From contig CAKZQS010000016.1 of NCBI GenBank assembly GCA_937141935.1, positions 1-64,000 of the forward strand: 64,000 nucleotides of DNA. Reading direction: 5' to 3'. Of the stretch, positions 23,908-51,737 are shown piece after piece; the first letter of the stretch is position 1, and each line of letters opens with the position of its first letter. The translations under genes were made by a program, and so were the position numbers. Source of the DNA: an uncultured Ectothiorhodospiraceae bacterium (GTDB taxonomy: Bacteria; Pseudomonadota; Gammaproteobacteria; Nevskiales; Oceanococcaceae). Under the pieces are notes generated by a model. It worked only from the letters and a program-made list of their open reading frames with translations. It was not told where the DNA came from and made no database searches.

Positions 23908-23911
<4 letters not shown>
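23821..23911. repeat. Direct repeat copy 2 (monooxygenase 3' end plus acs 3' flank)
   Basis: This matches 19158-19247. It preserves the vestigial last codons and TAG of a monooxygenase-like frame (GCGATGG...CGCTAG) although no monooxygenase precedes it, which shows the direction of duplication: the flank was copied together with acs sequence. Confidence 0.8.
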
Positions 23912-25863
<1,952 letters not shown>

Positions 25864-25921
25864 GAGTGCAGTTCGTCTGTCGCGAAGGGTTGGCCACTGT
25901 ACGACCGGCCGTGGGGGACGC

Positions 25922-25942
25922 CCATTCGACGATGGTCGGCCC
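25922..25942 (-). promoter_or_regulatory. 21-bp regulon motif, acs copy 1 side
   Basis: On the minus strand this reads GGGCCGACCATCG then TCGAATGG, 58 bp upstream of the acs ATG. Its core CGACCA...GAATGG matches the motif before the response regulator at 30255. It abuts, head to head, the porin-side motif, giving TGGTCG-n6-CGACCA. Confidence 0.6.
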
Positions 25943-30357: not shown

Positions 30358-31017
30358 ATGCGGGTTGCCTTGGACGCGAGAACTGTCATCGTCGTTGCCG
30401 ACGACCACCCCTTGTTCCGGGGGGCGCTGGCGCGCGCGGTTCGTGACTGCTTCCCGCGCAGCGTGCTTCACGAAACCGGCACGCTGGAGGGGGTGCGGCA
30501 ACTGCTGCGCGGACATGCCCCGGTTGACCTGCTGATCATGGAGCTCAACCTGCCGGATGCCCATGGCATGCAGTCGCTGCAGGCGCTGCGGCAGGCCCAC
30601 CCCGAACTGTCCATCATGGTCGTTTCCGGCGCTGGAGAGCCTGGCGCCCAGGCGGCGGTGCTGCGCGCCGGCGCGGCGGCCTACGTGCCCAAAACCTGTC
30701 CCCCCGCGCTGCTGCGTGAGGCCTTGCGCGCTGTGGGGTCTGGCGAAGTGTGGGCCCGTGCGGACGCCGCCCCAAGTAGCGCCGACAGGGCGCCTACGCA
30801 GTCCGGCCTCGCCCAGCTCACTCCACAGCAGCGCCGCGTGCTGGAGCTGCTGTCGCGCGGCCTGCTGAACAAGCAGATCGCCGCGGAACTCGAGGTGGCC
30901 GAGGCCACCGTGAAGTCGCATGTCACCGCCATCATGCGCAAGCTCGGCGCTCATAACCGCACCCAGGCCGTCGTGATCGCCAGAACCCTGGCGGACGCGC
31001 CTCAGCCCGGTGAATGA
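30358..31017 (+). CDS. LuxR-family response regulator, CrbR-like, with Glu at the phospho-acceptor site
   Basis: 219 residues: receiver (1-125) and LuxR helix-turn-helix ([36 protein letters not shown], about 150-184). It is a clear paralogue of crbR at 60263-60922: [19 protein letters not shown] and ATVKSHVTAIMRKL all match. Asp15-Asp16, Ser90 and Lys112 of the receiver are kept, but the acceptor Asp is Glu62 (LLIMELNLP, against LVLLDLKMP in crbR). Glu often mimics phospho-Asp, so the protein may be always active or follow another signal. It starts 83 bp after the 21-bp motif. No kinase is adjacent. Confidence 0.88.
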   Translation: MRVALDARTVIVVADDHPLFRGALARAVRDCFPRSVLHETGTLEGVRQLLRGHAPVDLLIMELNLPDAHGMQSLQALRQAHPELSIMVVSGAGEPGAQAAVLRAGAAAYVPKTCPPALLREALRAVGSGEVWARADAAPSSADRAPTQSGLAQLTPQQRRVLELLSRGLLNKQIAAELEVAEATVKSHVTAIMRKLGAHNRTQAVVIARTLADAPQPGE

Positions 31018-37019: not shown

Positions 37020-38720
37020 GTGAATGCCATCGGGCGATCAATACGGCGGTTCCGGCACCCTCCCCGGCGGCGGGCTGCTGAGGCGCCAGTACGGCGCATC
37101 CTGCTTGCGGGCGGCCTGTTGGCAGCCGCGGCGCTCATGGCGTTCGGGGTCTACGCGCTGTACCAACCCGGCAGTGCCGTGAGTCGCGTCCTCGCTGACC
37201 ATCATCACAAGCAGGCGATGCATGCGCTGGGTCGCGGGGAATGGTTGCGGGCGCGCAGTCGGTATCGGGCGGCCTTGCAGCGCGACCCCTGGCACCGGGC
37301 CGCGCGTTGGTCGTTGTTCGAAGGCGAGCTGGCGCGCGGTCACGCCGATCAGGCCTTTTTGCACCTGCAGGCTTACGTGGAGCTGTTCCCCGAGGATGCG
37401 CGTGGCTGGGCCGCGCTGGCCCGGGCACTGAGCGCGGGCGGCGCCGCGGCGGAGTCGGAAGCGGCCGCCGACCGCGCCGTGGCGCAGGCCCCGGACGCAC
37501 TCGCATACCGGTTGCTGCGGGCCGAACTGCGCTGGCGCAACAGCCGACTGGCCGGTGCGCTGGCCGACCTGGACCATGTGCTTGCGCATGAACCGGCGCA
37601 CCCGCGTGCTACCGGGTTGCGCCAAGAGGTCGTGCGCAGCCGCGACGCTGAGGCTGCTCAGCAGGGGGCGGGGGCGCCTGTGCGCCGGGGGCGTGGACAG
37701 TACTGGCCGCGGCAACTCGCGGACGCCGTTGCCGCCGTGCTCCAGGCTGTTCGTGCGCAGGACTGGGAGGCCGCCGAGGCCCGCGCGCTCCAGGCGCAGG
37801 CCGACTACCCCGCGACGATGTTCGGACCCTGGCTGCAAGGGGTGGTGGCCGTGAACGAGGGGCATATGGATGAGGCGGAAGCGCACTTCCTGCGCGCGCT
37901 GGAGCGCGCGCCGCGCTCCCACCGCGTGCTGACCCTGCTGACCCGCTTGTGGGCGCGGCGCGACGGCGCCGCCGCAGCTGGTGACCGCCTCATGGCGCTG
38001 GCACGGCGCGACCCCGGTTTCGCACTGCCCTGGGAGATCGCCCTGCAGGCCTATGTCGAGGCGCGCCTGCCGACGCGGGCGGAGGCGGCGATGCGGCGCG
38101 GGCTGGATATGCCCGCCGCCGGGGCGATCCCCTACCGGCGGCTGGCGGATCTGTACCAGCAGCTGGATCAGCCCCAGCAAGCGCTGCAGATCGCCCAGGC
38201 CGGCCTGGCCCACACGCCCGGAGACCACGAGCTCAGCCGCAGCCTGCCAGGCCTGTTACATCGTGCGGGGCAGGGGGACGAGGCGCTGCGTGCTTACCGT
38301 CGCCACCTCGAACAGTGGCCCAGCGACAGACGGATCGCGGCCGAGATGATCCACCACCTGCTGCAGGAGCCGACGGCCGCGGCGCTGGCAGAGGCCGAAG
38401 GGCTGGCGGAGCGCTTGGTCGGGGATCACGCCACCGAGGCCTATGCCCTGGACGCGCTGGGCCGCCTGGCGCTGGCGCAGCGGGATCCGGTACGCGGGCA
38501 GGCCTATGCCCAAGCCGCGGTTGCGGCAGACCCCGACGAGCCCCGCTACATCTACCGTCTGGGTGCCGCCCGGGCCGCTATGGGGGATCGGGCCGGCGCG
38601 CTGCGCGCCCTGGAGCGCGCCCTGCAGACGCCGCAGGGCTTCCCCGAGCGACTCGAGGCGCTGCGATTGCGCAACAGGCTCAATGCCGACTCAGCCAGCA
38701 CCGCGACTGATGGGCAATGA
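37020..38720 (+). CDS. Membrane-anchored TPR protein
   Basis: 566 residues: a basic N-terminus (RSIRRFRHPPRRR), one membrane helix (ILLAGGLLAAAALMAFGVYALY) and then helical TPR-like repeats to the end, for example QAMHALGRGEWLRARSRYRAALQRDPWHRAA, EAEAHFLRALERAPRSHRVL and GALRALERALQTPQG. It should sit on the periplasmic face as a protein-protein scaffold. The start is GTG. It is divergent from the permease fusion with only 21 bp between the proposed starts, and its 3' end overlaps the convergent membrane protein gene by 30 bp. TPR plus UnbV proteins recur together in other bacteria, but no function is established. Confidence 0.75.
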   Translation: MNAIGRSIRRFRHPPRRRAAEAPVRRILLAGGLLAAAALMAFGVYALYQPGSAVSRVLADHHHKQAMHALGRGEWLRARSRYRAALQRDPWHRAARWSLFEGELARGHADQAFLHLQAYVELFPEDARGWAALARALSAGGAAAESEAAADRAVAQAPDALAYRLLRAELRWRNSRLAGALADLDHVLAHEPAHPRATGLRQEVVRSRDAEAAQQGAGAPVRRGRGQYWPRQLADAVAAVLQAVRAQDWEAAEARALQAQADYPATMFGPWLQGVVAVNEGHMDEAEAHFLRALERAPRSHRVLTLLTRLWARRDGAAAAGDRLMALARRDPGFALPWEIALQAYVEARLPTRAEAAMRRGLDMPAAGAIPYRRLADLYQQLDQPQQALQIAQAGLAHTPGDHELSRSLPGLLHRAGQGDEALRAYRRHLEQWPSDRRIAAEMIHHLLQEPTAAALAEAEGLAERLVGDHATEAYALDALGRLALAQRDPVRGQAYAQAAVAADPDEPRYIYRLGAARAAMGDRAGALRALERALQTPQGFPERLEALRLRNRLNADSASTATDGQ

Positions 38721-40220
38721 CAGAATCCAGAGGCCGACGGTGGTCAAAACCACCATCAACAGCAACATGGGAAGCTGACTGAGCGCGGCGCGCCGACTGT
38801 CGGAGAAGATGCGCAGCGCCTCCAGGTGGGCCAGGTACACGCTGACGATGTGGCCGAACAGGATCAGCCACACCTGCGTATGCCAGACCGTGCCTGCCTG
38901 CACCACGATGTTCCACTTCAAGTCCGCCGTGCCCAGGAGGTTCCAGCCCCAGCCGAAGGGGTCGGACAACAGCTTGACCACTTGGGTCCCCTGCGAGAGC
39001 AGCAGTCCGTAGTAGTGCGTGACGTGATACACGAACGCAATGGGGACCAGGCTCATCGTGAAGCGCAGCGCCAGTTCGCGAACGCTGAGCTCGCAGCGGC
39101 TCACCAGCTTCGTCAGCCAAATGAAGAACAGGTAAACCGCGAGGTACAGGAAGGGCGAGAGCACCAACACACCGACCTGCCACCAGGTGTAGATGGCTTT
39201 GAGCAGCGGAAAGCTTTGCACGATGTCGTCACCGACCAGCGGCTTCAGCCAGCCGGCGACATGTACCCAGTAAATGCGCACATAGGGCACCGTCGACTTC
39301 ACGCCATCGAAAGCCGTCGAGGACAGCATGAACAGCACGAAGACGAGCAGGCTGACCTGCGTGACACGGGTCGCGGTCAGTCCGATGAAGGGTTGGCGCA
39401 GGTGCAGCTCCCGGCGGCCGCTGTCCTCGTTCCGTCGTGTGTACAGCGGCGCCATCATCCCGACAATGCGCAGGAACACGGCAAAAAACTCGGCATGCCG
39501 GAACCACGCCTGGCGGCCGAAGAGGAGGGCGCCCCCGAGCGTGACCCCGGTGTATACGCACAGCGCTACCGCGGTCGAATAGGGCCTCGCCTCGCCAAAA
39601 AGCTCAAACCAGATGAAGGCCATGTACAGGGCCAGGGCCGGCCAGTAGGCCCAGCGCTCGGGGTAGCTCCAGATGCCGGAAAACAGGCCCGGTCGCAGCT
39701 TCTCCGCCCACAGGCAAAGCACCTTCCAGGGGTTGATCGCGGCATAGCTATTTCCGGCGAGGGCCGTCAGGTAGGTGTAGCCAAGCACGAACACGATCCA
39801 GAAAAAGGTCATGTTGAAGTTGCGGTAGGCATCCGCCGTGCCGAGCAGCCCGGTCAGGATGGTCAGCAGCAAGCCCGCTACGCTGAGCAGCTGCGCGATG
39901 CAAACCGCGCTGGGGTGCACCAGGGCCTGCAGCAGCCCCACGTGGGAGATATTGCGCGTGCGCTGGTTCAGGTCGACGCTGCGTGCGTTGACGAAGTAGC
40001 CGACCACGAGAAAGGACAGGATCAGCGCCGCCGCGGCGCCATAGAGGTAGAGCCAGACCGGAACCGGCAGCGTGTAGATCTTGCCAAAGCTGTGCGCGTG
40101 CGCCAGCGTCGGCGCCGCCAGCAAGCCCACGCTGAGAGCAAGGCGGCCGGGCTGCGCGGGAGCGGGAGGGTCACGGCGAAGTGAGCGCATGGCGGGCATA
40201 TCGGCAAGAGCAGCGCTCAT
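38691..40220 (-). CDS. Polytopic membrane protein of unknown function (FedB-like)
   Basis: About 509 residues. A signal-like N-terminus ends TLAHAHSFG, then YTLPVPVWLYLYGAAAALILSFLVVGYF and roughly eleven further helices. Conserved-looking polar segments include NSYAAINPWKVLCLW, SYPERWAYWPAL and VYHVTHYYGLLLSQG. The AHxFGxxYxLPVPxWLY opening resembles membrane proteins sometimes annotated as fenitrothion hydrolase FedB; I recall this name only from annotation, and it says little about function. Several His in membrane segments could bind metal or heme. ATGs at 40220, 40199 and 40190 are possible starts. The 3' end overlaps the TPR gene. Confidence 0.65.
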   Translation of the reverse strand: MSAALADMPAMRSLRRDPPAPAQPGRLALSVGLLAAPTLAHAHSFGKIYTLPVPVWLYLYGAAAALILSFLVVGYFVNARSVDLNQRTRNISHVGLLQALVHPSAVCIAQLLSVAGLLLTILTGLLGTADAYRNFNMTFFWIVFVLGYTYLTALAGNSYAAINPWKVLCLWAEKLRPGLFSGIWSYPERWAYWPALALYMAFIWFELFGEARPYSTAVALCVYTGVTLGGALLFGRQAWFRHAEFFAVFLRIVGMMAPLYTRRNEDSGRRELHLRQPFIGLTATRVTQVSLLVFVLFMLSSTAFDGVKSTVPYVRIYWVHVAGWLKPLVGDDIVQSFPLLKAIYTWWQVGVLVLSPFLYLAVYLFFIWLTKLVSRCELSVRELALRFTMSLVPIAFVYHVTHYYGLLLSQGTQVVKLLSDPFGWGWNLLGTADLKWNIVVQAGTVWHTQVWLILFGHIVSVYLAHLEALRIFSDSRRAALSQLPMLLLMVVLTTVGLWILSLPISRGAG

Positions 40221-40479
40221 CCTAGTCGCCCCATCTCCGGTGCCGGCCGGGTTTCGACGAAAGTCGCAGGGGGCGCGGCAGGCGGCTGCAGGCACCCATG
40301 CGGCGTCGCCCGGGGTCTGCTGTCCCACTTAGGTCTAATTGCCCCGGGCCAGGCGCTAACGCAGCATCGATTCACGGGCCGCCGCGGCGGTCGCCACCAC
40401 CCAGCCCGATGCGCCTTGCCATGTGCCTGCCGGATAGCCGCCTCCCATCACGCCAGAACCGCCGCGCGGTGCCTGGCGC

Positions 40480-41139
40480 ATGAGCGCGACCCTGCCCATG
40501 CTCCGTCGACGCCTGGGCGACGCGTCCGCGTCGGTGTCACAGCAGTTGGCCGAGGCGCGGATCCTGGCCGTTCGCGCGCGCTGTCGCGCGATCAAAAACT
40601 GGCTTGGCGACGAGATTCATGGCTATGCCGAGGGCGCCTGCCTGCCGGCATGGCGCCAAGGGCTTGCAGGCCAGGTGGTGATTCGCTCGCCGCATTATGG
40701 CTGGGTGTTGGCGCCCCTCGAGGCCCATGAGCACCGGCGTCTGAGCCTTAGCAACCTGTATGCGCCCGTGCATGAAATCGAGGCCCGGCTCGCCGACGCT
40801 TACCGTCGGGATACCGTCCGCCACCCCTTGCCGCCCGCGCGCTTGGCGGCGATTCGGCAGGCCGGAAATCTTTCGGTCGAAGCCGCAGTGACGGTGCCGG
40901 CGCAGGCTTACTACCACGTGCTCCAGCAGTTGCGCGCCTCGCTGGCCGCCTGGCTGGATGCGGTGCACGCCGCCGCGCCGGGGGTCTGGCAAGCATCCGG
41001 CCCCGAGTCTGGGACCGTCGACGAGCCTGCGCGCTACTGGCAGGCACCCGCGCAGGACGTGCTTGAGTCGCTGCAGACCGAGTCCCGCGGCGAGCCGCGG
41101 CGGCGGCCACTGTTCCCGCGGCTGCGCCCCAGCGCCTGA
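40480..41139 (+). CDS. AbiTii-domain-like protein
   Basis: 219 soluble residues. The N-terminal 110 residues follow the AbiTii pattern as I know it: SVSQQLAEARILAVRARCRAIKNWLGDEIHGYAEG, then LPAWRQGLAGQVVIRSPHYGWVLAPL and LYAPVHEIEARL. AbiTii domains occur in proteins linked to abortive infection and other phage-defence contexts, with unclear activity. The C-terminal half is helical and ends in a Pro/Arg-rich tail. No antitoxin or partner gene is adjacent: it sits alone between the FedB-like gene and the LVIVD array. The ribosome-binding site is weak. The family call rests on pattern memory only. Confidence 0.5.
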   Translation: MSATLPMLRRRLGDASASVSQQLAEARILAVRARCRAIKNWLGDEIHGYAEGACLPAWRQGLAGQVVIRSPHYGWVLAPLEAHEHRRLSLSNLYAPVHEIEARLADAYRRDTVRHPLPPARLAAIRQAGNLSVEAAVTVPAQAYYHVLQQLRASLAAWLDAVHAAAPGVWQASGPESGTVDEPARYWQAPAQDVLESLQTESRGEPRRRPLFPRLRPSA

Positions 41140-41168: not shown

Positions 41169-41201
41169 AAAAAAAGCGGCGCCGCCCCATCCGGGGCGGC
41201 A
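41169..41201 (-). terminator. Intrinsic terminator after LVIVD gene 1
   Basis: Read on the minus strand, stem GCCGCCCC/GGGGCGGC with a 4-nt loop is followed within five bases by eight T residues. It lies 35 bp past the stop of the first LVIVD gene and ends the whole leftward LVIVD array. Confidence 0.85.
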
Positions 41202-41235
41202 CCGCGACGGTGCACGAACGGAGACCCGTACACAA

Positions 41236-42693
41236 TCAGTCGAAGGGCCACACCCCATTGGTGAAGCGCAGCACCATGAAGCCGTTGTCCTGGCAGGTGG
41301 TCCACAGCTCGCCGCGCTCGGGGATCAGGCGGACTTGGGCGGTGCACCAGTCGCTCGTCAGGTTCACGTCCACGTTGCCGCTGTCTGCCAGGTTGGTCGT
41401 CCGCTCAAGGAGGCCGTTGACATGTTCCGAGCTGGTCAGCTCGGCATTGCGGCCCACCTGGGCGGGCGGGTTGTAGTACGCAATTTCGCGGGGCGCGTGT
41501 GGGTCGCGGATGTCGAAGACCCGCACGCCCGACTGGAAGTAGCCGCAAGCCAGGGCGGTGGGGTTCTCGAAGCGATCAACGTTGCAGTAGTGCGCCTGGT
41601 AGCCAAAGATGCCGTTGCCTTGCGTGTCGGACATCTGAATGTCGGCATGCTCAGGCATGTGCACCTCCAGCTTGAGCTTGGAGATCACGCGCGGCTGCGT
41701 TTCGTCGGAAATATCGATGATCCGTGCCGCACCCGCCGGCCCGCGCAGACCGCCGACGCCGCCCTCGTCGACAAACACGATGTAGGGCTTGCCGTCGTAG
41801 TAAACCGGGATCGTGTGTTGGGCGGTGCTGCCGTCCTCCCAGCAAACTTCGCCCAGCACTGGCATCGCCGGGTCGGGCTCGCGGGCCTGCACAGCGGAGG
41901 TATCAAAGATCACCAGCCCGTTGCCGCAGCTGGCGCCCACGCCATACATGCGGTTGCCGTCCTCGCGCACCGACAAGCCGTGCCCGGAGCCCTGGGTCTG
42001 GGTCTGCAGGATGGGTTGCGGCAGCACGGTATTGCTGGTGTCAATCGCGCTGTGGACCAGGCCCACGTAGTAGGTGTTGCCGTCAGGCGCCCATTCGCCC
42101 TCGTGCCCGATGGGCGCCTGCGAGGGCGTACTGGAGGCCAATTGCGGCCGTTCGCAGCCAGCGGTGAGATCGTAGATGTCAAAGTACACCGGGCCGCCAA
42201 CGTTCCAGCCGGCGTCGGCGCCAAGCAGGCCGCGCCGCTCGTTGACCTTCAGCGACTCCCAGGGGTCCAGCATCGCCGGGGTTTGCAGCGCCGTGCTGCG
42301 TACCGGATTGGTGGGGTCGGAGGCATCGATGACCTGCACGCCGGCCGCACCGGCGAATGCAGTGCCGTAGTAGGCGCAATCGTCATACCAGGCCATTTGC
42401 CAGCTCGCGCCCTGGCCCTGGTGCTGGCCTACAAGTTCCAGGTTGCAGGCATAGCCCTGCTGGGAGCGGCCGCTCATGCGGTCCTCAAGCGACACGCGAC
42501 CCTGGATGTCCGTCTCGGGCGAGGAGCCGGGGCCGCAGTCTGCACGTGCGACCGGCCCTTCGAAGACGCCGTCGACCGTGTTGCGACTGCCGGCGGAGGC
42601 GGCCGCCGCAAGATTGGCGTCCCGGCCTCCGCTGCAGGCCGTCAGGGCGCCGCCCAACAGCACCAGGCCCGTGCAAAGAAGTGTGTGTCGCAT
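41236..42693 (-). CDS. LVIVD-repeat lipoprotein, paralogue 1
   Basis: 485 residues. The lipoprotein signal MRHTLLCTGLVLLGGALTAC is followed by the family block PETDIQGRVSLEDRMSGRSQ, then YDDCAYYGT, AMLDPWESLKVNERRGLLGA, HGLSV, ARIIDISDETQP, VRVFDIRDPHAPREIAYYNPP and the near-invariant C-terminal ELWTTCQDNGFMVLRFTNGV. The V-I-D-x-S-D-P-T-N-P units are LVIVD repeats, predicted to form an outer-membrane-anchored beta-propeller. Function unknown. ATG 42693 has GGGGAGAC ahead. It has its own 21-bp motif 77 bp upstream. Confidence 0.88.
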   Translation of the reverse strand: MRHTLLCTGLVLLGGALTACSGGRDANLAAAASAGSRNTVDGVFEGPVARADCGPGSSPETDIQGRVSLEDRMSGRSQQGYACNLELVGQHQGQGASWQMAWYDDCAYYGTAFAGAAGVQVIDASDPTNPVRSTALQTPAMLDPWESLKVNERRGLLGADAGWNVGGPVYFDIYDLTAGCERPQLASSTPSQAPIGHEGEWAPDGNTYYVGLVHSAIDTSNTVLPQPILQTQTQGSGHGLSVREDGNRMYGVGASCGNGLVIFDTSAVQAREPDPAMPVLGEVCWEDGSTAQHTIPVYYDGKPYIVFVDEGGVGGLRGPAGAARIIDISDETQPRVISKLKLEVHMPEHADIQMSDTQGNGIFGYQAHYCNVDRFENPTALACGYFQSGVRVFDIRDPHAPREIAYYNPPAQVGRNAELTSSEHVNGLLERTTNLADSGNVDVNLTSDWCTAQVRLIPERGELWTTCQDNGFMVLRFTNGVWPFD

Positions 42694-42769
42694 GTGTCTC
42701 CCCAAGGTGCATGCCGCGCCACCGACATGGGGCGCCCGAACTTACGGTATGCCGGTACCGGGGGTCTGC

Positions 42770-42790
42770 CTATTAGACATTCGGGGGAGG
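42770..42790 (-). promoter_or_regulatory. 21-bp regulon motif, LVIVD gene 1
   Basis: On the minus strand it reads CCTCCCCCGAATG then TCTAATAG, 77 bp upstream of the ATG. The distance is almost the same as at LVIVD gene 3 (78 bp) although flanking sequence differs. Confidence 0.7.
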
Positions 42791-42795
42791 GCGGC

Positions 42796-44295
42796 TCAAT
42801 TGAGCGGCCACACGCCGTTGGTGAAGCGCAGCACCATGAAGCCGTTGTCCTGGCAGGTGGTCCACAGCTCGCCGCGCTCGGGAATCAGGCGCACCTGGGC
42901 GGTGCACCAGTCGGCGGTGAGGTTGTTTTCGACGCCGGCCGGACCGTCGCCGTTGGAGCGTGCCGCCGTGCCGTTGGCGTGTTCGGAACTGCTCAGTTCG
43001 GCGTTGCGGCCCACCTGGGCTGGCGGGTTGTAATAAGCGATTTCGGCCGGGCGCAGCGGGTCGCGAATGTCGAACACGCGAATCCCCGACTGGAAAAAAC
43101 CGCAGGCCAATGCCGTGGGATTGTCCTGCCGGTCGACGCTGCAGTAGTGCGCTTGGTAGCCGAAAATCCCGTTGCCTTGAACATCGCTGGCCTGGATGTC
43201 GGCGTGCTCGGGCATATGGATTTCCAGCTTGATCTTGGAGACAACACGGGGCTGGGTTTCGTCGCTGATGTCGATAATGCGCGCTGAGCCCGCCGGAGCG
43301 ACGGGGTCGATGCTGCCAAGACCGGTGCCATCGCCGCCACCTTCATCGACGAAGACGACGTAGGGCTTCCCATCGTAGTGGACCAGAATGGTGTGCTGCG
43401 CCGTGCTGCCGTCTGCCCAGCAGACGCTGCCGATCACAGGCATCGCGGGGTTGAGTTCCCTGTTCTGTACCGCGGTGGTGTCGTAAATCACCAGGCCATT
43501 CAGGGCCTCTGCGGAGCATGCGTACATGTTCACCGCATACATGCGGCTCCCATCGGCATTCAGCGACAGCCCGTGCAAGGAGCCGATGGCTTCCACCTGC
43601 GCGATGAGCTGGGGATTGTTGGGGTCGGAGACGTCAATGGCACTCTGGGTGGTGCCGCCGACGTAGTAGGTCTTGCCGTCGGGCGCCCAGTCGCCTTCAT
43701 GGCCGGCAGGAAATGCCGTCGGCGTGCTGGACAGCAGATTCGGCTGCGCGCAATCACCGTTCAGATCGTAAATATCGAAAAACAGCGGCCCGGAGCCATT
43801 CCAGCCGGCTCCGCCGCTCAGCAGACCGCGTTTTTCGTGCACTTTCAGCGATTCCCACGGATCGAGCATGGCCGGCGAGCGCAGGGCGCCGGCATGCCGC
43901 GGGTTGGTCGGGTCCGATACATCGATGACTTGCACGCCGGCTTGCCCGGGAAAGCTGGTGCCGTAGTAGGCGCAGTCCTCATGCCAGGCGTGCTGCCAAC
44001 TGGCGCCCCGCCCCTGATGCTGGCCGACCAGCTCCAGGTTGCAGGAATAGCCCTGCTGCGAGCGGCCGCTGGTGCGGTCCTCGAGCGAGACCCGGCCCTG
44101 GATGTCGGTTTCGGGCATGGAGCCGGGGCCGCAGTCGGCGCGAGGAACCGGGCCTTCAAATACGGTATCCGGGTTGTCTAGTTCGCTGCGCGAGGGCGCG
44201 TTGGTGTCCATACGACCGCTCTGGCAAGCGTTCAGGAACAGAGCAGTGCTTGCCACCAGCAGCAGCACCTCCTTTTCGTACATTTTCATTAGCAT
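42796..44295 (-). CDS. LVIVD-repeat lipoprotein, paralogue 2
   Basis: About 499 residues. The signal ends FLNAC. The family blocks are present with small changes: SWQHAWHEDCAYYGT replaces SWQMAWYDDCAYYGT, and KVHEKRGLL replaces KVNERRGLL. It has an extra Gly/Asp-rich insert (DEGGGDGTGLGSIDPVAPAG) and a C-terminal RSNGDGPAGVENN loop. It starts 8 bp after the stop of paralogue 3 (ATG 44295, or 44289), so both are one operon; accordingly it has no 21-bp motif of its own. Function unknown. Confidence 0.87.
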   Translation of the reverse strand: MLMKMYEKEVLLLVASTALFLNACQSGRMDTNAPSRSELDNPDTVFEGPVPRADCGPGSMPETDIQGRVSLEDRTSGRSQQGYSCNLELVGQHQGRGASWQHAWHEDCAYYGTSFPGQAGVQVIDVSDPTNPRHAGALRSPAMLDPWESLKVHEKRGLLSGGAGWNGSGPLFFDIYDLNGDCAQPNLLSSTPTAFPAGHEGDWAPDGKTYYVGGTTQSAIDVSDPNNPQLIAQVEAIGSLHGLSLNADGSRMYAVNMYACSAEALNGLVIYDTTAVQNRELNPAMPVIGSVCWADGSTAQHTILVHYDGKPYVVFVDEGGGDGTGLGSIDPVAPAGSARIIDISDETQPRVVSKIKLEIHMPEHADIQASDVQGNGIFGYQAHYCSVDRQDNPTALACGFFQSGIRVFDIRDPLRPAEIAYYNPPAQVGRNAELSSSEHANGTAARSNGDGPAGVENNLTADWCTAQVRLIPERGELWTTCQDNGFMVLRFTNGVWPLN

Positions 44296-44303
44296 TTCGC
44301 GGT

Positions 44304-45731
44304 TTATTCGAGCGGCCACACGCCGTTGGTGAAGCGCAGCACCATGAAGCCGTTGTCCTGGCAGGTGGTCCAGATCTCGCCGCGTTCGCGCACGAAGCGG
44401 ACCTGAGCGCTGCACCAGTCGGCGGTGAGGTCGTTGCCGCCGCCGACCTGCTGCGCGGCGCCGTTGGCGTGCTCGGAGCTGGGCAGTTCGGCGGCTCGGC
44501 CCACTTGCGCCGGCGGGTTGTAATAGGCGATCTCGCGGGGGGCGAGCGGGTTGCGAATGTCGAAGACGCGGATGCCGGACTGAAAATACCCGCAGGCCAG
44601 CGCGGTGGGGTTCTGCTTGCGGTCGACGCCGCAGTAGTGCCCCTCGTAGCCGAAGCTGCCGTTGTTGGCGGTGTCGACGCTGCGGGCGTCGGCCTGGTCG
44701 GGCATGTGGATCTCGAGCTTGAGCTTGGAGACCACGCGCGGCTGCGTCTCGTCGCTGATGTCGATCAGACGGGCCGCCCCGGTGCCGCCCTCGTCGACGA
44801 ACACGATGAAAGGCTTGCCGTCGTAGAACACGGGAATCGTGTGCTGCGCCAGCGTGCCATCGTCCCAGCACACGCGGCCGATCTCGGGCATCGAGGGCAG
44901 GGGTATACGGTTCTGGATTTCGGTGGTGTCGAAGATCACCAGGCCATTGCAGGTGCCGGCGCCGGTACCGATCGACACGGCATACATGCGCGTGCCCGCC
45001 TCGTTCAGGGACAGGCCGTGCAGCGACCCGACGACGTCGGCTTGCGGGATCAGGCGCGGTTGGTTGGGGTCGGTCACGTCGATGGCGCTGTGCGCCACGC
45101 CGACGTAGTAGGTCTTGCCGTCGGGTGCCCACTCGCCTTCGTGGCCAACGGGGACCGCCGATGGCGTACTCGCCAGCAGGTCGGGCTGGGCGCAGTCGCC
45201 GTTCAGGTCATAAACATCGAAGAACGCGGGGCCGGCGCCGTTCCAGGCCGTATCGGCCCCCAGCAGCCCGCGCCGCTCGTTGACCTTCAGCGACTCCCAG
45301 GGGTCGAGCATCGCGGGCGAGCGCAAAGCGCCGACGCCCTGAGGATTCGTCGGGTCGGACACATCGACCACCTGCGTGCCGGCCTGGCCGGGGAAGGCGG
45401 TGCCGTAGTAGGCGCAGTCCTCGTACCAGGCCATCTGCCAGCTGGCGCCCTGGCCCTGGTGCTGGCCTACGAGTTCCAGGTTGCACCAGTAGCCTTCCTG
45501 CGAGCGGCCGCTGGTGCGGTCCTCGATGGAAACACGGCCCTGGATATCGGTTTCGGGCTGCGCGCCGGGGCCGCACTGCGCGCGTGCGACCGGGCCCTCG
45601 AAAACGCGGGAGTCATCGCTACGCGGCGTGCTGATGGTGCCGCCGCCGGCGTCGCCTTCCCGCCCGCCGCTGCAGGCGCCCAAGGCAAAGGTGAGCATCA
45701 GCATGCAGCCGGCTCGTTTGATTGCTCGCAT
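44304..45731 (-). CDS. LVIVD-repeat lipoprotein, paralogue 3
   Basis: 475 residues with lipobox FALGAC at 15-20. Family blocks: PETDIQGRVSIEDRTSGRSQ, GYWCNLELVGQHQGQGASWQ, YEDCAYYGT, AMLDPWESLKVNERRGLLGA, FFDVYDLNGDCAQPDLLAS, FIVFVDEGG, IRVFDIRNPLAPREIAYYNPP and the C-terminal RGEIWTTCQDNGFMVLRF. It is closest to paralogue 2, which follows directly. The 21-bp motif lies 78 bp upstream. Function unknown; predicted outer membrane propeller. Confidence 0.88.
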   Translation of the reverse strand: MRAIKRAGCMLMLTFALGACSGGREGDAGGGTISTPRSDDSRVFEGPVARAQCGPGAQPETDIQGRVSIEDRTSGRSQEGYWCNLELVGQHQGQGASWQMAWYEDCAYYGTAFPGQAGTQVVDVSDPTNPQGVGALRSPAMLDPWESLKVNERRGLLGADTAWNGAGPAFFDVYDLNGDCAQPDLLASTPSAVPVGHEGEWAPDGKTYYVGVAHSAIDVTDPNQPRLIPQADVVGSLHGLSLNEAGTRMYAVSIGTGAGTCNGLVIFDTTEIQNRIPLPSMPEIGRVCWDDGTLAQHTIPVFYDGKPFIVFVDEGGTGAARLIDISDETQPRVVSKLKLEIHMPDQADARSVDTANNGSFGYEGHYCGVDRKQNPTALACGYFQSGIRVFDIRNPLAPREIAYYNPPAQVGRAAELPSSEHANGAAQQVGGGNDLTADWCSAQVRFVRERGEIWTTCQDNGFMVLRFTNGVWPLE

Positions 45732-45808
45732 GATGTTCTCCTATCCTCCCCGTCCGCCGGGTAACGGCGCCAGTGCAGGTCCACCCTACGCCGCTCTGTG
45801 AGGGTCGC

Positions 45809-45829
45809 CTATTAGACGATCGGAGGAGG
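45809..45829 (-). promoter_or_regulatory. 21-bp regulon motif, LVIVD gene 3
   Basis: On the minus strand it reads CCTCCTCCGATCG then TCTAATAG, 78 bp upstream of the ATG. Confidence 0.7.
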
Positions 45830-45850
45830 GCGGCAGGTGCGCTTAAGGCG

Positions 45851-47323
45851 TCAGTCGACGAAGGGCCACACGCCGTTGGTGAAGCGCAGCACCATGAAGC
45901 CGTTGTCTTGGCAGGTGGTCCACAGTTCGCCGCGCTCGGGGATCAGACGCACTTGGGCCGAGCACCAGTCGGCCGTCAGGCTGGTGGTGCCGCCGGCCGA
46001 GCCGACGAGTCCGTTGGCGTGCTGGGAGCCGGGGATGGCGGTACGGTTGCCTTCCTGCGCGGGCGGGTTGAAGTAGGCGATTTCACGCGGGGCGTAGGGG
46101 TCGCGCACGTCGAAGACGCGAATGCCCGATTGGAAGTAGCCGCAGGCCACGGTGGTCGTATTGGTCACGCGATCGACGCCGCAGTAATGACCCTCGTAGC
46201 CGAAAACGCCCGTATTGAACAAGTCTGCGGTGCGCAGCTCCTCACGCTCGGGCATGTGGATTTCGAGTTTCAGCTTCGAGGCGACAACCGGCTGCGTTTC
46301 ATCGCGGATGTCGATGAGCCGGGCGGCGCCCAGTCCTGCTTCGTCAACGAACAGGATGAAGGGATTGCCACCGATGGTGATCGGAACGGTGTGCTGAGCG
46401 GCGCTGCCGTCGGTCCAGCACACCTCACCCAATACTTCGGCACCCGCCAGCGTCTCGCGATCTTGGACGTGGGAGGTATCAACGATGCGCAGGCCGTTGC
46501 CGACACCGTCGCACTCCCGGTTTGAAGCCAGGTAGGCGCGGGTGCCGTCCTCGCTCATGCTTAGCCCATGGGTCTGGCGATTGATGTTGCTGATTGGCGT
46601 CGGGGCGCTCGGCTCCGTCACGTCTATGGCTACGGTGATTGGAGTTCTGGTGGAAGACCCGTAGTAGATCGTACCGTCCGGTGCCCAGTTGCCCTCGTGT
46701 CCGACGGGCAATTGAACCGGGGTGCTTGCCATCAACTCAGGTTGCGTGCAGTCGCTCGCGACGTCGTACACATCAAAGTACACGGGGCCCTGGCCGTTCC
46801 ACCCCGCGACGGCGCCGAGCAGGCCACGCCGCTCGTTAACCTTCAAGGACTCCCATGGGTCGAGCATCGCACCGGTCGTCAAATTGACGGTTCTGACGGG
46901 ATTTGTCGGATCGCTGACGTCGATGACCTGCGTACCGGGAACGGTATGCGCAGCGATGCCGCCCAACTGGGTGTCGTAGTAGGCGCAATCGTCATACCAG
47001 GCCATTTGCCAGCTCGCCCCCTCACCCTGGAACTGCCCGGTGAGTTCCAGATTGCACCAGTAACCCTGCTGCGAACGGCCGCTGGTGCGGTCCTCGATGG
47101 CCACACGACCCTGGATGTCGGTTTCCGGTTGCGAGCCGGGCCCGCACTGGGCACGCGGCACGGGGCCTTCGAATACAGTCGCTGCGCCACCGCTGTCATC
47201 CGCGGTTCGCAGGTCCGGTGTACCGCGCTCGGTGATGTCAGCGCGACCGCCGCCGCAGGCGGCCAGCAGCAAGGTCAGGCTTGTGGCTGCCAGTATCGGC
47301 AGCGGGGGTGCATGGCTAGGCAT
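45851..47323 (-). CDS. LVIVD-repeat lipoprotein, paralogue 4
   Basis: 490 residues. The signal ends LTLLLAAC. It keeps PETDIQGRVAIEDRTSGRSQ, YDDCAYYDT, AMLDPWESLKVNERRGLLGA, YFDVYDVASDC, FILFVDEAG, ARLIDIRDETQP, IRVFDVRDPYAPREIAYFNPP and the C-terminal ELWTTCQDNGFMVLRFTNGV. The loops are more divergent than in paralogues 1-3. ATG 47323 has a GAGGAG site; another in-frame ATG at 47365 exists but fits the signal less well. The 21-bp motif is 142 bp upstream of the chosen ATG. Confidence 0.88.
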   Translation of the reverse strand: MPSHAPPLPILAATSLTLLLAACGGGRADITERGTPDLRTADDSGGAATVFEGPVPRAQCGPGSQPETDIQGRVAIEDRTSGRSQQGYWCNLELTGQFQGEGASWQMAWYDDCAYYDTQLGGIAAHTVPGTQVIDVSDPTNPVRTVNLTTGAMLDPWESLKVNERRGLLGAVAGWNGQGPVYFDVYDVASDCTQPELMASTPVQLPVGHEGNWAPDGTIYYGSSTRTPITVAIDVTEPSAPTPISNINRQTHGLSMSEDGTRAYLASNRECDGVGNGLRIVDTSHVQDRETLAGAEVLGEVCWTDGSAAQHTVPITIGGNPFILFVDEAGLGAARLIDIRDETQPVVASKLKLEIHMPEREELRTADLFNTGVFGYEGHYCGVDRVTNTTTVACGYFQSGIRVFDVRDPYAPREIAYFNPPAQEGNRTAIPGSQHANGLVGSAGGTTSLTADWCSAQVRLIPERGELWTTCQDNGFMVLRFTNGVWPFVD

Positions 47324-47465
47324 CGGGCTCTCCTCTATCTTCTCGGCCGGAGACGGTCGCGGCATGCCGCTGAACCGTGCGGGCGCGGCTGCGGCTCGGC
47401 CGCATGGCCGGACCACTGGCGCTGCTACGCCCAAGTTTCACGCTACGGGATGCCCGGCCCCCGCA

Positions 47466-47486
47466 CCATTAGACATTCGGGGGAGC
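47466..47486 (-). promoter_or_regulatory. 21-bp regulon motif, LVIVD gene 4
   Basis: On the minus strand it reads GCTCCCCCGAATG then TCTAATGG. The core CCCCCGAATGTCTAAT is identical to that of LVIVD gene 1. Confidence 0.68.
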
Positions 47487-47499
47487 TTCGGCGAATCGC

Positions 47500-50022
47500 T
47501 TAGCGGCAGATCAGGCTCAGGTCCACGGCATCAGCCATTGCGGCGTAGCCGGCGTCGTTCGGGTGCAGGCCGTCACCGCTGTCGTACTGCGCGTCCATTT
47601 GTTCGGCGTCGTCCGGCGCCGCCACGGCCTGCTCGAAATCGATGAAGCCATCGAACTGCGGGGAATTTTCGCGTGTCCAGCAGTTGATGGCGTTGCGAGC
47701 CGCCACGTTGTCGGGTGACCCGTGCAGGCCGGGGTTACTGGCCGGTGTCTGGGGGCTGACCAGCAGCCGCATCCCTTGGGCATGCACGCGGTTGCGCAGC
47801 AACTCCAGGCCTTGGACGACGGCATCCGCGCTCGCGCTGTTGAAGCCGAGATCGTTGGTGCCCTCCAGCAGGATCACGTCGCGCACCTGCGGCCACAGGA
47901 ACACGTCGCCATCAATGCGTCGCTGGGCCGAATCGCTGGGAAAGAACTCGCGCGTATCGGTCAGAATTTTGTTCGCGCCAATGCCGGCGTTCAGCACCAC
48001 GACGTGTTCGCAGCCCGGCGTCTGTGCCAGCCGGCGCTGCAGGATATCCGGCCAGCGCTGGTTAGCATTGACGGTCGAGGACGAACCGTCGGTAATCGAA
48101 TCGCCTAGCGCCACCACGGTCCGAACCGGCTGCGGGCTGATGACGTCGATGCCCTGCAGGTAGAACCAGCTTGTGGTCGGCACGGCGAAGGGCAGTCCTT
48201 GCGTGTCGCCGGTGTGGTCGCCACCCGGGGCGATGAAAGAACGCTGGTGCGCCTCGACATGCCCGGTCACGGCGGGCACGGCGGCCGGCACATGGATGCT
48301 GACAGCCAGGTCGGTGAAGGCGTCGACCTCGAAGTCCGCCACCGCGTCGCTGATGGCATCGGCGCCGGGCGGCAGGGTGATCTGCGTATCCCCGCCGTTG
48401 AAGGTGACCGGCCGCAGGCTGTCGGCATCCACGGCCGCGCCATCGGCCGCCCGCGCAATGGTGATGGGGCCCAGAGTCAGGTCCGCGCTGCCGTAGCGGT
48501 TCGACAGCCGCACGCGCGGCGCGCTGCCGCTGGCGTGCGGGTGCACGATCATGCGCAGTGTCTGCTGACCACTGACGGCGCCGGGCGCGGGCATCATGCT
48601 GGTGCTCCAGGCGGTAGCCGGCACGGGGCCCGCGTTGACAGGCTGTGCGTCTTCCTTTGGTGCCGTGCGGCCGCGCAGCCATTGCAGGTCGATGGCCGCG
48701 GCCATCGCGGCGTAGCCGGCATCGTTCGGGTGCAGGCCGTCGCCGCTGTCGAAATCGGGATTCAGCACACCGGGCCGGGCGGGGTCTTCCATCACCCGAT
48801 CCCAGTCCACGAGCTGGTCATAGATGCCGCTGCTGCGGATGTATGCGTTGATCTGCTGCCGCTTGGCCTCCTGTTCGGCCAATGCACCGTAGCTTGGGAT
48901 AAAGAATGTGGTGGCCGGCATGAGGGTGCTGCCGATCAGGTGGATGCCTGCCGCGCGGATGCGCGTAGCCACCTGCGTGATGCCAGCGATGATTTCCTCG
49001 GCGCTGCGGTACGGGGACAGCCCCAGGTCGTTAATGCCCTCCATGAAGATCACGTCGGTGACACCGCGGCGGGCGAGTACGTCCCAGTTCATGCGCGCCA
49101 AGGCGTTGCGGCCTTGGCCCGGCAGCGCACCGTCCGTCAGCACGCGGTTGCCGGAGATGCCCTTGTTAACGACGATCATCTGCTCGGCGGCAGGCAGTTC
49201 AGCGCGGATTCGCCGTTGCAACACGTCCGGGTAGCGGCGGTTGGCATCGGTGGTCGAGTTCAGCCCTTCGGTGATCGAGTCGCCGAAGGCCACGACGACG
49301 TTGCGCTGCTGCGGGGCGAAGCCGTCGATGCCCGCCACGAAGTGCCAGCGCTCGGTGGTCTGCGTGTAGGCCGCGCCGGCTTCATCGGCTGCGTGATCAC
49401 CCGATTCGGTGATGAACGACGTGGCCTGGGCAAAATCATGCCCGGTCGGCAGGCCCGTCGCCTGTGGCAGATGCAGGCTGACGGCCAGTGCCTCGAAGGC
49501 CTGCACCGGAAACTCCACAACGTCGCTGACCACCTGCGTGCCCGGCGCCAGCGTGATCTGCCCCTGCCCACCGAAGAGCAGCGGTACGTTGCTCCCCGGC
49601 TGCAGAGCCGCGCCCTCGGCTTGGCGTCCGAGCCAAGCGCTGCTGACAACCAGCGGGCGCTCACCAAAGCGGTTGCTCAGGTGCACGCGCAGCCGCTCAC
49701 CCTCCCAGTGCGTAGTGACGATGTTGCGAATGGTCTGGTCGTCGAAGCCTGTGCCGTCAAGCGGGGCGATACCGCTGCTCCAGATAGGCGCCCAGTGGGC
49801 CAGCCGGTTGCGCTCGCTGTCCGCACCTTGCGGTGGCACCGCGCAGGCTGCGGCTCCGACCGGTGGTGTCGGCACCGGGGCCTGCGTTGGGGCGCCGGAG
49901 GGGGACGGCTGGGGTGACTCGGGGGCGTCGCCGCCCGCCGCAGGGCGGCCGCCCGAACCGCAGGCGGCAAGCAGCGCACTGAACAGCAGAGGCGACAGGA
50001 AGGCGAGGGCACGTTGGGGCAT
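47500..50022 (-). CDS. Lipoprotein with two tandem SGNH/GDSL hydrolase domains
   Basis: 840 residues. The signal ends in lipobox SALLAAC. Domain 1 has FGDSITEG with Ser249, KGISGNRVL (block II), FMEGINDLGLS (block III) and DGLHPNDAGYAAM (block V). Domain 2 repeats this: LGDSITDG with Ser642, NAGIGANKIL, LLEGTNDLGFN and DGLHPNDAGYAAM. Each hydrolase unit is preceded by a jelly-roll-like region (RVHLSNRFGERPLVV / RVRLSNRYGSADLTL). So the gene arose by internal duplication of a whole beta-domain plus SGNH unit, both apparently active. Such enzymes cleave esters; substrate unknown. It lies between LVIVD paralogues 4 and 5. Confidence 0.9.
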   Translation of the reverse strand: MPQRALAFLSPLLFSALLAACGSGGRPAAGGDAPESPQPSPSGAPTQAPVPTPPVGAAACAVPPQGADSERNRLAHWAPIWSSGIAPLDGTGFDDQTIRNIVTTHWEGERLRVHLSNRFGERPLVVSSAWLGRQAEGAALQPGSNVPLLFGGQGQITLAPGTQVVSDVVEFPVQAFEALAVSLHLPQATGLPTGHDFAQATSFITESGDHAADEAGAAYTQTTERWHFVAGIDGFAPQQRNVVVAFGDSITEGLNSTTDANRRYPDVLQRRIRAELPAAEQMIVVNKGISGNRVLTDGALPGQGRNALARMNWDVLARRGVTDVIFMEGINDLGLSPYRSAEEIIAGITQVATRIRAAGIHLIGSTLMPATTFFIPSYGALAEQEAKRQQINAYIRSSGIYDQLVDWDRVMEDPARPGVLNPDFDSGDGLHPNDAGYAAMAAAIDLQWLRGRTAPKEDAQPVNAGPVPATAWSTSMMPAPGAVSGQQTLRMIVHPHASGSAPRVRLSNRYGSADLTLGPITIARAADGAAVDADSLRPVTFNGGDTQITLPPGADAISDAVADFEVDAFTDLAVSIHVPAAVPAVTGHVEAHQRSFIAPGGDHTGDTQGLPFAVPTTSWFYLQGIDVISPQPVRTVVALGDSITDGSSSTVNANQRWPDILQRRLAQTPGCEHVVVLNAGIGANKILTDTREFFPSDSAQRRIDGDVFLWPQVRDVILLEGTNDLGFNSASADAVVQGLELLRNRVHAQGMRLLVSPQTPASNPGLHGSPDNVAARNAINCWTRENSPQFDGFIDFEQAVAAPDDAEQMDAQYDSGDGLHPNDAGYAAMADAVDLSLICR

Positions 50023-50046
50023 GAGAGATCAGTACGCGGACGGGTC

Positions 50047-50072
50047 AAAAAAAGGCGCCCCACGGGGCGCCT
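50047..50072 (-). terminator. Intrinsic terminator after LVIVD gene 5
   Basis: Read on the minus strand, stem AGGCGCCC's complement GGGCGCCT pairs across a 4-nt loop and is followed by seven T residues, about 45 bp after the stop of LVIVD gene 5. The SGNH gene downstream must therefore have its own promoter or depend on read-through. Confidence 0.85.
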
Positions 50073-50118
50073 GCGGACAATAGCGGCCGTGCCCGCCGGA
50101 GCGGGCGCGCGAGCGGCG

Positions 50119-51615
50119 TTAGTCGCTGTCGTTAAACGGCCAGACGTTGTCTGCGAACTGGAGAATCATGAAACCGTTGTCCTGGCAGGTTCCCCAAAGT
50201 TCGCCCCGTTCACGGACGAAGCGAATTTGCGCGCTGCACCAGTCGGCGGTCATTTGCACACCCTGGCCGAGGCCACCCAGATCGCCCGCTGCATGCTGCG
50301 AGCCGGACAGCTGGTCCTGCTTGCCCACCTGCGCCGGCGGGTTGTAATAGGCGATCTCGCGCGGGAAGTAGGGGTCACGAATATCGAAGACGCGAATCCC
50401 GGAGTTGAAGTAGCCGCAGGCCAGCGCCTGGGCGTTCTCCGGGTCATCTGCCGTGCAGTAATGGCTGTCGTAGCCGAACAGAACCTGGCCGGGGTAATCC
50501 GCCAGCACGGTGGCGCAGTTTGCCGGGTCATGGGTTTCGAGCATCAGCTTGGCTGTGAGCTGGGGGTTGGCCTCATCCGAAATGTCGAAGATGCGCGCAA
50601 AGGCGAAGGGCGAAAGCCCCGACGCACAGTTCTTGCCGGATATGCCGGCTTCATCCACGAACACGATGTGCGGCACGCCGTTGATCTTGATCGGTAGCGT
50701 GTGCTGTGCCGTTTCCGAGCCGTCGAGCCAGTAGGTCTCGCTGATGATCGGGACTTCGGGGTTCTCGGCGCGGTTCTGGATATCCGTGGTGTCGTAGATC
50801 ACCAGTCCGTTGTCGGTGGAGCCAGAAGCCCCCGATGCGAGACCCAGCGAGACGACATAGGCCCGGGTCCCGTCCTCGTTGGTCGACAGCCCATGCGTGC
50901 TGGCCGCAGGCGTCGTCCAGGTCAGCATGTATTCGGGGTTGGTGGGGTCGCTGATGTCGAAGGCACTGTAATCGCCGGTGGACGAGCTGTAATAGGTGAG
51001 GCCGTCCTGGGAAAAGTTGCCCTCGTGGCCCGAGGTGTCCGCCATCTCCGCGTTGGCGAGCAATTCCGGATGCGTGCACCCGCCGGAGAGGTCATACAGG
51101 TCGAACTGATTGCCACCACCGCCTTCCTGGCCATCCACGGCGCCGAGCATCGCGCGCTTCTCGTTCACCTTGAGCGACTCCCAGGGGTCGAGCATCGGCG
51201 TGGTGGTCAGGTAAGCGCTGGGGCGCGGGTTGGTGCGGTTGGAGGCGTCGATCACGACGACGCCCGGCCGCTCGCGCGCGTCGTTGCGCTTGGTGCCGTA
51301 GTAGGCACAGTCGTCGTACCAGGCCATTTGCCAACTGGCGCCGTCCCCCTGCCATTGGCCTACCAGGTCCAGGTTGCAGTTATAGCCTTGCTGCGATCGA
51401 CCGCTGACCCGGTCCACAAGGGGGACCTGGCCCTGCAAACCGGTTTCCACCCGGTCCTCGGCGCGACAGATGGCCTTGCGGACGGGTTTCTCCCAGGGCA
51501 CCTGAACATGATCGTCAAGCGACCGGCTCGGTGCGGTCGGCGTGCTGCCAAGCTCGCGCCCGCCACCGCAGGCCACGGTCAGCACGCACGCAGCGGCGAT
51601 GAAGGGAATTCGCAT
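50119..51615 (-). CDS. LVIVD-repeat lipoprotein, paralogue 5 (most divergent)
   Basis: 498 residues. The signal is MRIPFIAAACVLTVAC. The first family block is altered (VETGLQGQVPLVDRVSGRSQ). YDDCAYYGT, PMLDPWESLKVNEKRAMLGA, HIVFVDEAG, ARIFDISDEANP, IRVFDIRDPYFPREIAYYNPP and the C-terminal ELWGTCQDNGFMILQFADNV remain. An extra loop with Cys (GISGKNCASGLS, DPANCATVL) may form a disulfide. ATG 51615 has a GGAGAC ahead. The motif lies 101 bp upstream. Function unknown. Confidence 0.87.
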   Translation of the reverse strand: MRIPFIAAACVLTVACGGGRELGSTPTAPSRSLDDHVQVPWEKPVRKAICRAEDRVETGLQGQVPLVDRVSGRSQQGYNCNLDLVGQWQGDGASWQMAWYDDCAYYGTKRNDARERPGVVVIDASNRTNPRPSAYLTTTPMLDPWESLKVNEKRAMLGAVDGQEGGGGNQFDLYDLSGGCTHPELLANAEMADTSGHEGNFSQDGLTYYSSSTGDYSAFDISDPTNPEYMLTWTTPAASTHGLSTNEDGTRAYVVSLGLASGASGSTDNGLVIYDTTDIQNRAENPEVPIISETYWLDGSETAQHTLPIKINGVPHIVFVDEAGISGKNCASGLSPFAFARIFDISDEANPQLTAKLMLETHDPANCATVLADYPGQVLFGYDSHYCTADDPENAQALACGYFNSGIRVFDIRDPYFPREIAYYNPPAQVGKQDQLSGSQHAAGDLGGLGQGVQMTADWCSAQIRFVRERGELWGTCQDNGFMILQFADNVWPFNDSD

Positions 51616-51716
51616 GTGGGGTCTCCAATCCAAGGTTTTCCGGTCTCCTGCCCCGCAGTCGCCATGGCCTGCGCCGAGGGTGCACAGGCGGTTATAGCAC
51701 CGGGCCGGTGCCCCGC

Positions 51717-51737
51717 CTATACGACTTTTGGTGGAGT
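51717..51737 (-). promoter_or_regulatory. 21-bp regulon motif, LVIVD gene 5
   Basis: On the minus strand it reads ACTCCACCAAAAG then TCGTATAG. It shows the ACCAA core of the porin/regulator version together with the GTC-n2-ATAG end of the LVIVD version. Confidence 0.6.

Follow-up and report, generated by a model that had tools for sequence, protein, structure and literature searches.

We analysed the first 64,000 nucleotides (positions 1 to 64,000, forward strand) of contig CAKZQS010000016.1 from an uncultured Ectothiorhodospiraceae bacterium (assembly GCA_937141935.1), a stretch called the window below, which contains an array of five paralogous lipoprotein genes, LV1 to LV5. The LV family to which they belong is homologous to Sb-PTE, the haloalkylphosphorus hydrolase/phosphotriesterase of Sphingobium sp. 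TCM1 (PDB 5ioj and 5hrm), with sequence similarity over the full length and a common propeller fold. The array is a variant of a known enzyme family, not an undescribed fold or system. Based on the homology, the fold, the invariance of the site residues, the promoter geometry and the linkage to a membrane-protein gene, it is rather probable that the LV lipoproteins are acetate-type-regulated, outer-membrane, metal-dependent (phospho)ester hydrolases, sister to Sb-PTE.

The evidence for the homology comes from both sequence and structure. A profile of 67 family members matches 5ioj/5hrm in the PDB with an E-value of 7.5e-68 (hmmsearch), the next match being at 5.6e-16, and the LV3 sequence alone finds Sb-PTE at 7.5e-29 (phmmer). 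With an AlphaFold2 model of LV3, which was built from 67 sequences and has a predicted local distance difference test score (pLDDT) of 89, Foldseek gives Sb-PTE at 1.7e-34 and the next protein at 1.3e-10, while VIA-align aligns 407 residues of the model with Sb-PTE at Z 43.6 and a root-mean-square deviation of 2.2, the next entry having Z 29.1. The shared fold is a seven-bladed propeller. A preliminary description of this DNA, made from the sequence, had stated that no function was known for the family, which is superseded by the homology to a metal-dependent phosphotriesterase. Its label of LVIVD-repeat proteins stands only in part: the propeller fold is well supported and short repeat-like strands such as VIDVSDPTNP resemble the LVIVD repeat (PF08309) and the choice-of-anchor B model (TIGR04312), but the copies tested fall below the Pfam and NCBIfam cut-offs (for PF08309 the best score is 20.1 bits, for LV5, against a gathering cut-off of 20.2; LV2 was covered by the genome-wide search only), and these names carry no function. 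The idea of a methanethiol oxidase or SELENBP1 relationship, which came from a sub-threshold match, was abandoned after the PDB result.

All five genes lie on the minus strand, namely LV1 at 41236..42693 (485 residues), LV2 at 42796..44295 (with 44289 as the other end point; 497–499 residues), LV3 at 44304..45731 (475 residues), LV4 at 45851..47323 (490 residues) and LV5 at 50119..51615 (498 residues). That they are five paralogous lipoproteins of 475–499 residues around a double SGNH gene, as described previously, is confirmed by the open reading frames, by a lipobox in every copy and by pairwise identities of 51–71%, with LV5 the most divergent copy within the array. A DNA repeat search recovers the same five copies, and the 3.57-Mb genome, searched in full, has no sixth. 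The conserved blocks SGRSQ, [DE]DCAYY[GD]T, DPWESLKV[NH]E and TCQDNGFM are likewise present as claimed. By the general Lol rule, a residue other than Asp after the lipobox cysteine fits the outer membrane, and because this +2 residue is S, Q, S, G and G in the five copies, an outer membrane location is consistent for all of them; the earlier view of outer-membrane-type lipoproteins with a propeller fold is thus supported.

For mapping the site, LV members were aligned jointly with Sb-PTE and Sphingomonadaceae homologs. In this alignment E146, H197, H238, E314 and H365 of LV3 correspond to E201, H258, H317, E407 and H475 of Sb-PTE, and these five His/Glu positions are invariant in all 72 members of the family alignment and in three Sphingomonadaceae homologs; a divergent Variovorax relative retains four of the five, having Ser at E201. 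The complete six-residue His/Glu set of Sb-PTE is lacking in all five array copies and in 71 of the 72 members, which retain five of the six with H389 swapped. Judged from these alignments, the LV family stands as sister clade to a metalloenzyme, and its own site is altered in a consistent way. The two groups also differ in that their identity is about 25–30%, in that only two of the six near-invariant cysteines of the LV family are common to both, and in that the array, unlike Sb-PTE, has lipoboxes, a tandem arrangement, ACTU-like promoters and different neighbours. One divergent sequence, L060_7559 (L060:7559-9058), is the sole member with His at 389. It is divergently oriented beside a Gln-type member and a membrane-protein gene, and it branches with Sb-PTE, although its branch is long and the placement could be misleading; it is a possible link between the His-type and Gln-type sites.

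The promoters of the array point to a type of control related to carbon source. A 21-bp motif resembling the ACTU site of the CrbS/R (MxtR/ErdR) acetate regulon lies on the minus strand before LV1 (42767..42787, CCCCCGAATGTCTAATAGG), before LV3-LV2 (45806..45826, CCTCCGATCGTCTAATAGG), before LV4 (47463..47483, CCCCCGAATGTCTAATGGT) and before LV5 (51714..51734, CCACCAAAAGTCGTATAGG), and for an internal comparison the window holds the ACTU site (25921..25940, minus strand, GCCGACCATCGTCGAATGGG) of acs, the acetyl-CoA synthetase gene (23908..25863, minus strand). With a search pattern drawn from the array sites, the four sites and the acs promoter are found in the window where 0.26 matches are expected, and none of 100 shuffles reaches five, which bears out the earlier statement that four of the five genes have a motif of their own. 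Genome-wide, with at most one mismatch, only the four array sites and one site within a TetR-type gene are found; outside the array, two near matches to the motif in the genome were set aside as lying inside genes (TetR-type and accD). The array shares with the acetate regulon the GTC-TAAT half-site and its position relative to the -10 hexamer: each of the four array promoters has a -10-like hexamer whose first base is exactly 29 nt away from the G of GTC (TACCGT for LV1, TAGGGT for LV3-LV2, TAGCGT for LV4 and TATAAC for LV5), and so does acs (TACAGT). Across the four array sites the offset of 29 gives 14 of 24 hexamer matches (the runner-up offset gives 9). In Pseudomonas fluorescens the ACTU motif of the CrbR-dependent acs promoter is situated at -52 to -36, directly before the RpoD promoter (PMC5715377), and by our count the primers listed in this publication put TACAAC at the identical 29 nt.

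LV2 has no motif of its own and is separated from LV3 by a gap of 8–14 nt, so that it is probably translated from the LV3 transcript. Intrinsic-terminator-like hairpins on the minus strand lie 3' of LV1 (41176..41205, 13-bp stem, T8) and 3' of LV5, between LV5 and the SGNH gene (50053..50072); taken alone, such hairpin scans are weak evidence, but with a hairpin following it LV5 is probably a transcription unit of its own. A candidate activator is the LuxR-type response regulator at 30358..31017 (plus strand), for which ErdR (CrbR) is the top model among all of NCBIfam. Adjoining acs there is also a 1384-residue hybrid kinase (19438-23592) with CHASE and several PAS domains, which is unlike the SLC5-type CrbS.

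Putting these together, we favour a picture in which LV1–LV5 would be lipid-anchored in the outer membrane, at the surface or in the periplasm, and would use a His/Glu metal site of the propeller to cut ester bonds, the substrates perhaps being small hydrophobic compounds in phosphoester or carboxyl ester form. The four promoters would be switched on by a LuxR-type regulator similar to CrbR/ErdR, and the trigger may be the use of acetate or of an acetate-yielding compound. Loop differences between the paralogs may broaden the range of substrates, and handling of the substrate or product would fall to the neighbouring multi-pass membrane protein.

Several points weigh against this picture. The regulator at 30358-31017 scores 157 bits, far below the ErdR cut-off of 390 bits, and the left half-site of the array motif is CCC or ACC in place of the GAC of the published ACTU consensus; the LV genes are also outside the published regulon. 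The motif was not found upstream of 67 homologs elsewhere, the best scores there being no better than in shuffled sequence; we rejected the motif as a family-wide trait for this reason, and acetate-type control is not a property of the family as a whole. At the site, Gln takes the place of H389 in 71 of the 72 members, all five array copies included, and Glu stands at residue 259 in 70 of the 72, where the Sb-PTE group has Met or Thr; with the site changed in this way, a different activity is possible. In Sb-PTE the aligned His and Glu residues are probably those that bind the two metals. For the array itself, the tie to acetate control that had been proposed is supported by the motif and the 29-nt spacing shared with acs, and acetate-type promoter control of the array is plausible on these grounds.

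One alternative is that the LV proteins are true phosphotriesterases, hydrolysing natural or man-made organophosphate triesters for detoxification or phosphate supply. It takes its support from the closest characterised enzyme, since Sb-PTE cuts organophosphate flame retardants (PMC11656708, PMC5460133), and from the five retained His/Glu positions. By contrast, the replacement of H389 by Gln and the low identity to Sb-PTE speak against the same activity. The distribution of the family also has to be considered. Homologs were collected from related genomes (39 of 100 with homologs), from named genomes (Limnobacter, Burkholderia, Nocardioides, Pseudonocardia, Paraconexibacter and a Verrucomicrobium) and from plasmids, and they form a broad and deep-branching family over Pseudomonadota, Actinomycetota and Verrucomicrobiota, which makes an origin in response to man-made triesters unlikely. 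Phosphate control was examined and rejected: the window has two Pho-box-like matches against 2.75 expected, neither of them near an array promoter, and this fits the use of carbon rather than phosphate; the promoters look carbon-regulated. We consider true phosphotriesterases rather unlikely for these reasons. In a separate observation, two Sphingobium plasmids (L108, L109) carry Sb-PTE-like genes, annotated hypothetical, beside IS6100 copies on conjugative plasmids.

The preliminary description had instead suggested that the LV proteins are surface binding proteins, with variable loops on a conserved core setting different ligands; in this reading they would be non-catalytic and feed the SGNH esterase. 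The variation is indeed higher in loops, but the concentration there is only moderate, sites with at least four residue types accounting for 17% of the positions in loops and 8% of those in strands; it is compatible with a changed substrate range, without proving it. The ratio of nonsynonymous to synonymous substitution rates (dN/dS) between the array paralogs is 0.22–0.51, and the five copies, with their moderately variable loops, are by this measure maintained as functional proteins under constraint. The tandem paralogs and the SGNH gene among them would suit binding proteins. This gene, between LV4 and LV5 (47500..50022, minus strand, 840 residues), encodes a two-domain SGNH/GDSL hydrolase lipoprotein, with PF13472 matched above the cut-off in two stretches (E 1.3e-49) and the GDSIT, GxND and DGLHPND blocks retained in both domains. 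It has no ACTU-like motif upstream, however, and in none of 60 relatives does an SGNH gene stand beside an LV gene. Nor would one expect a binding scaffold to keep the Sb-PTE-type His/Glu positions strictly invariant across 72 homologs, and the reading as binding proteins for different ligands is accordingly improbable. The proposal of an undescribed system that includes the SGNH esterase is not supported, given the same count and the lack of the motif upstream of the 67 homologs, and we found no evidence for a link to an acetylated polymer.

Two kinds of genes recur beside LV genes. The first encodes a multi-pass membrane protein, in the window at 38691..40328 (minus strand). In 11 genomes a relative of this protein is encoded no more than 2 kb away from an LV gene, where by our estimate well under one is expected; this linkage is mostly in early-branching members, the array included. 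The protein has no Pfam or NCBIfam match, and a PDB fold search gave no convincing match. It is a likely partner of the LV lipoproteins, judging from the gene order. The names FedB and fenitrothion hydrolase were considered for it and set aside, as no annotation confirmed them. Paralogs of the membrane protein elsewhere in a genome (L136:2457-4847, L137:6908-9523) adjoin large lipoproteins that have the common block KTR[FY][DQ]MA[HN][GA]C and no Pfam match.

The second recurring neighbour is a DUF305/CopM-like protein, found at 17 of 20 LV loci and at none of 20 regions taken from those genomes as controls, and usually directly adjacent. CopM and DUF305 proteins are periplasmic metal-binding proteins, and of two DUF305 neighbours tested with the CopM model one is just at the cut-off. 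With Sb-PTE as the outgroup, the DUF305-adjacent members group in a single derived portion of the tree, with 2 changes where shuffles give 9.9, and DUF305 is a constant neighbour of this portion. The array is without such a partner, and the only DUF305 gene of the genome, which we considered as a lost partner and rejected, is in an unrelated context. It is quite improbable that the propellers are metal-handling proteins that store or deliver copper or zinc, in the way that the metallochaperone AztD does for zinc (PMC6689063), because, although the DUF305 linkage, the copper binding of Synechocystis CopM (PMC4335983) and the cupredoxin-like genes near LV genes in L048, L073 and L079 are in favour of it, the array has no DUF305 partner, its acetate-type promoters offer no hint of metal control, and the fold that matches best, far ahead of the next, belongs to an enzyme. 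AztD is not among the fold matches listed for the LV3 model, which excludes nothing.

The cupredoxin-like gene encodes a small secreted protein (L048:4164-4631, L079:2584-3102, L073:10885-11292) that resembles the cupredoxin part of nitrous-oxide reductase (DELHLHGY...FELH), and it directly adjoins the membrane-protein gene in L048 and L079. L048, from the betaproteobacterial metagenome-assembled genome BP_29, holds an independent array of four LV genes (at 5442, 9926, 11697 and 14274) forming a clade of its own; three gene copies for c56, a small secreted protein without a Pfam match, alternate with them, and the array is adjoined by the membrane-protein and cupredoxin-like genes. In one genome DUF3604 genes are near family members (L087:4775-6850, L088:11518-14076); DUF3604 proteins are PHP-like, and a PHP enzyme serves as the diesterase in the flame-retardant pathway. 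A role in sterol, alkane or fatty-acid catabolism was rejected, since the neighbourhoods of the 20 LV loci show no convincing enrichment relative to the 20 controls (SDR 5 vs 5, AMP-ligase 1 vs 2, AraC 5 vs 2, acyl-CoA dehydrogenase 4 vs 1).

The sister species lacks a clear ortholog for three genes on the two flanks of the array, which places the array within an accessory region. Between the membrane-protein gene and LV1 there is an AbiTii-domain gene (40480-41139, plus strand; Pfam E 1.9e-11). Elsewhere in the window, a single protein (33720-36998) fuses an ArsP-like permease with FG-GAP repeats and an ASPIC/UnbV domain, next to a second FG-GAP/UnbV gene (31544-33895).

More tentatively, the LV family may be an old, broad clade of outer-membrane propeller metallohydrolases with Gln for His in the metal site, which would act on a natural ester that yields acetate and would have two alternative partners, the undescribed multi-pass membrane protein in early branches and a CopM-like metallochaperone in the derived clade, and which would form the natural background of the flame-retardant hydrolases. 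What sets Sb-PTE apart is that it cuts organophosphate flame retardants that have no activated leaving group, and enzymes of this kind are described as recently evolved (PMC11656708). Dozens of relatives from three phyla, named 'hypothetical protein' in the annotated records inspected, are now placed beside Sb-PTE, with their site residues and partner genes named. With this placement, both the natural substrate and the way in which the flame-retardant activity evolved become directly testable, and the carbon-source-linked promoter type of the array suggests a growth condition to try.

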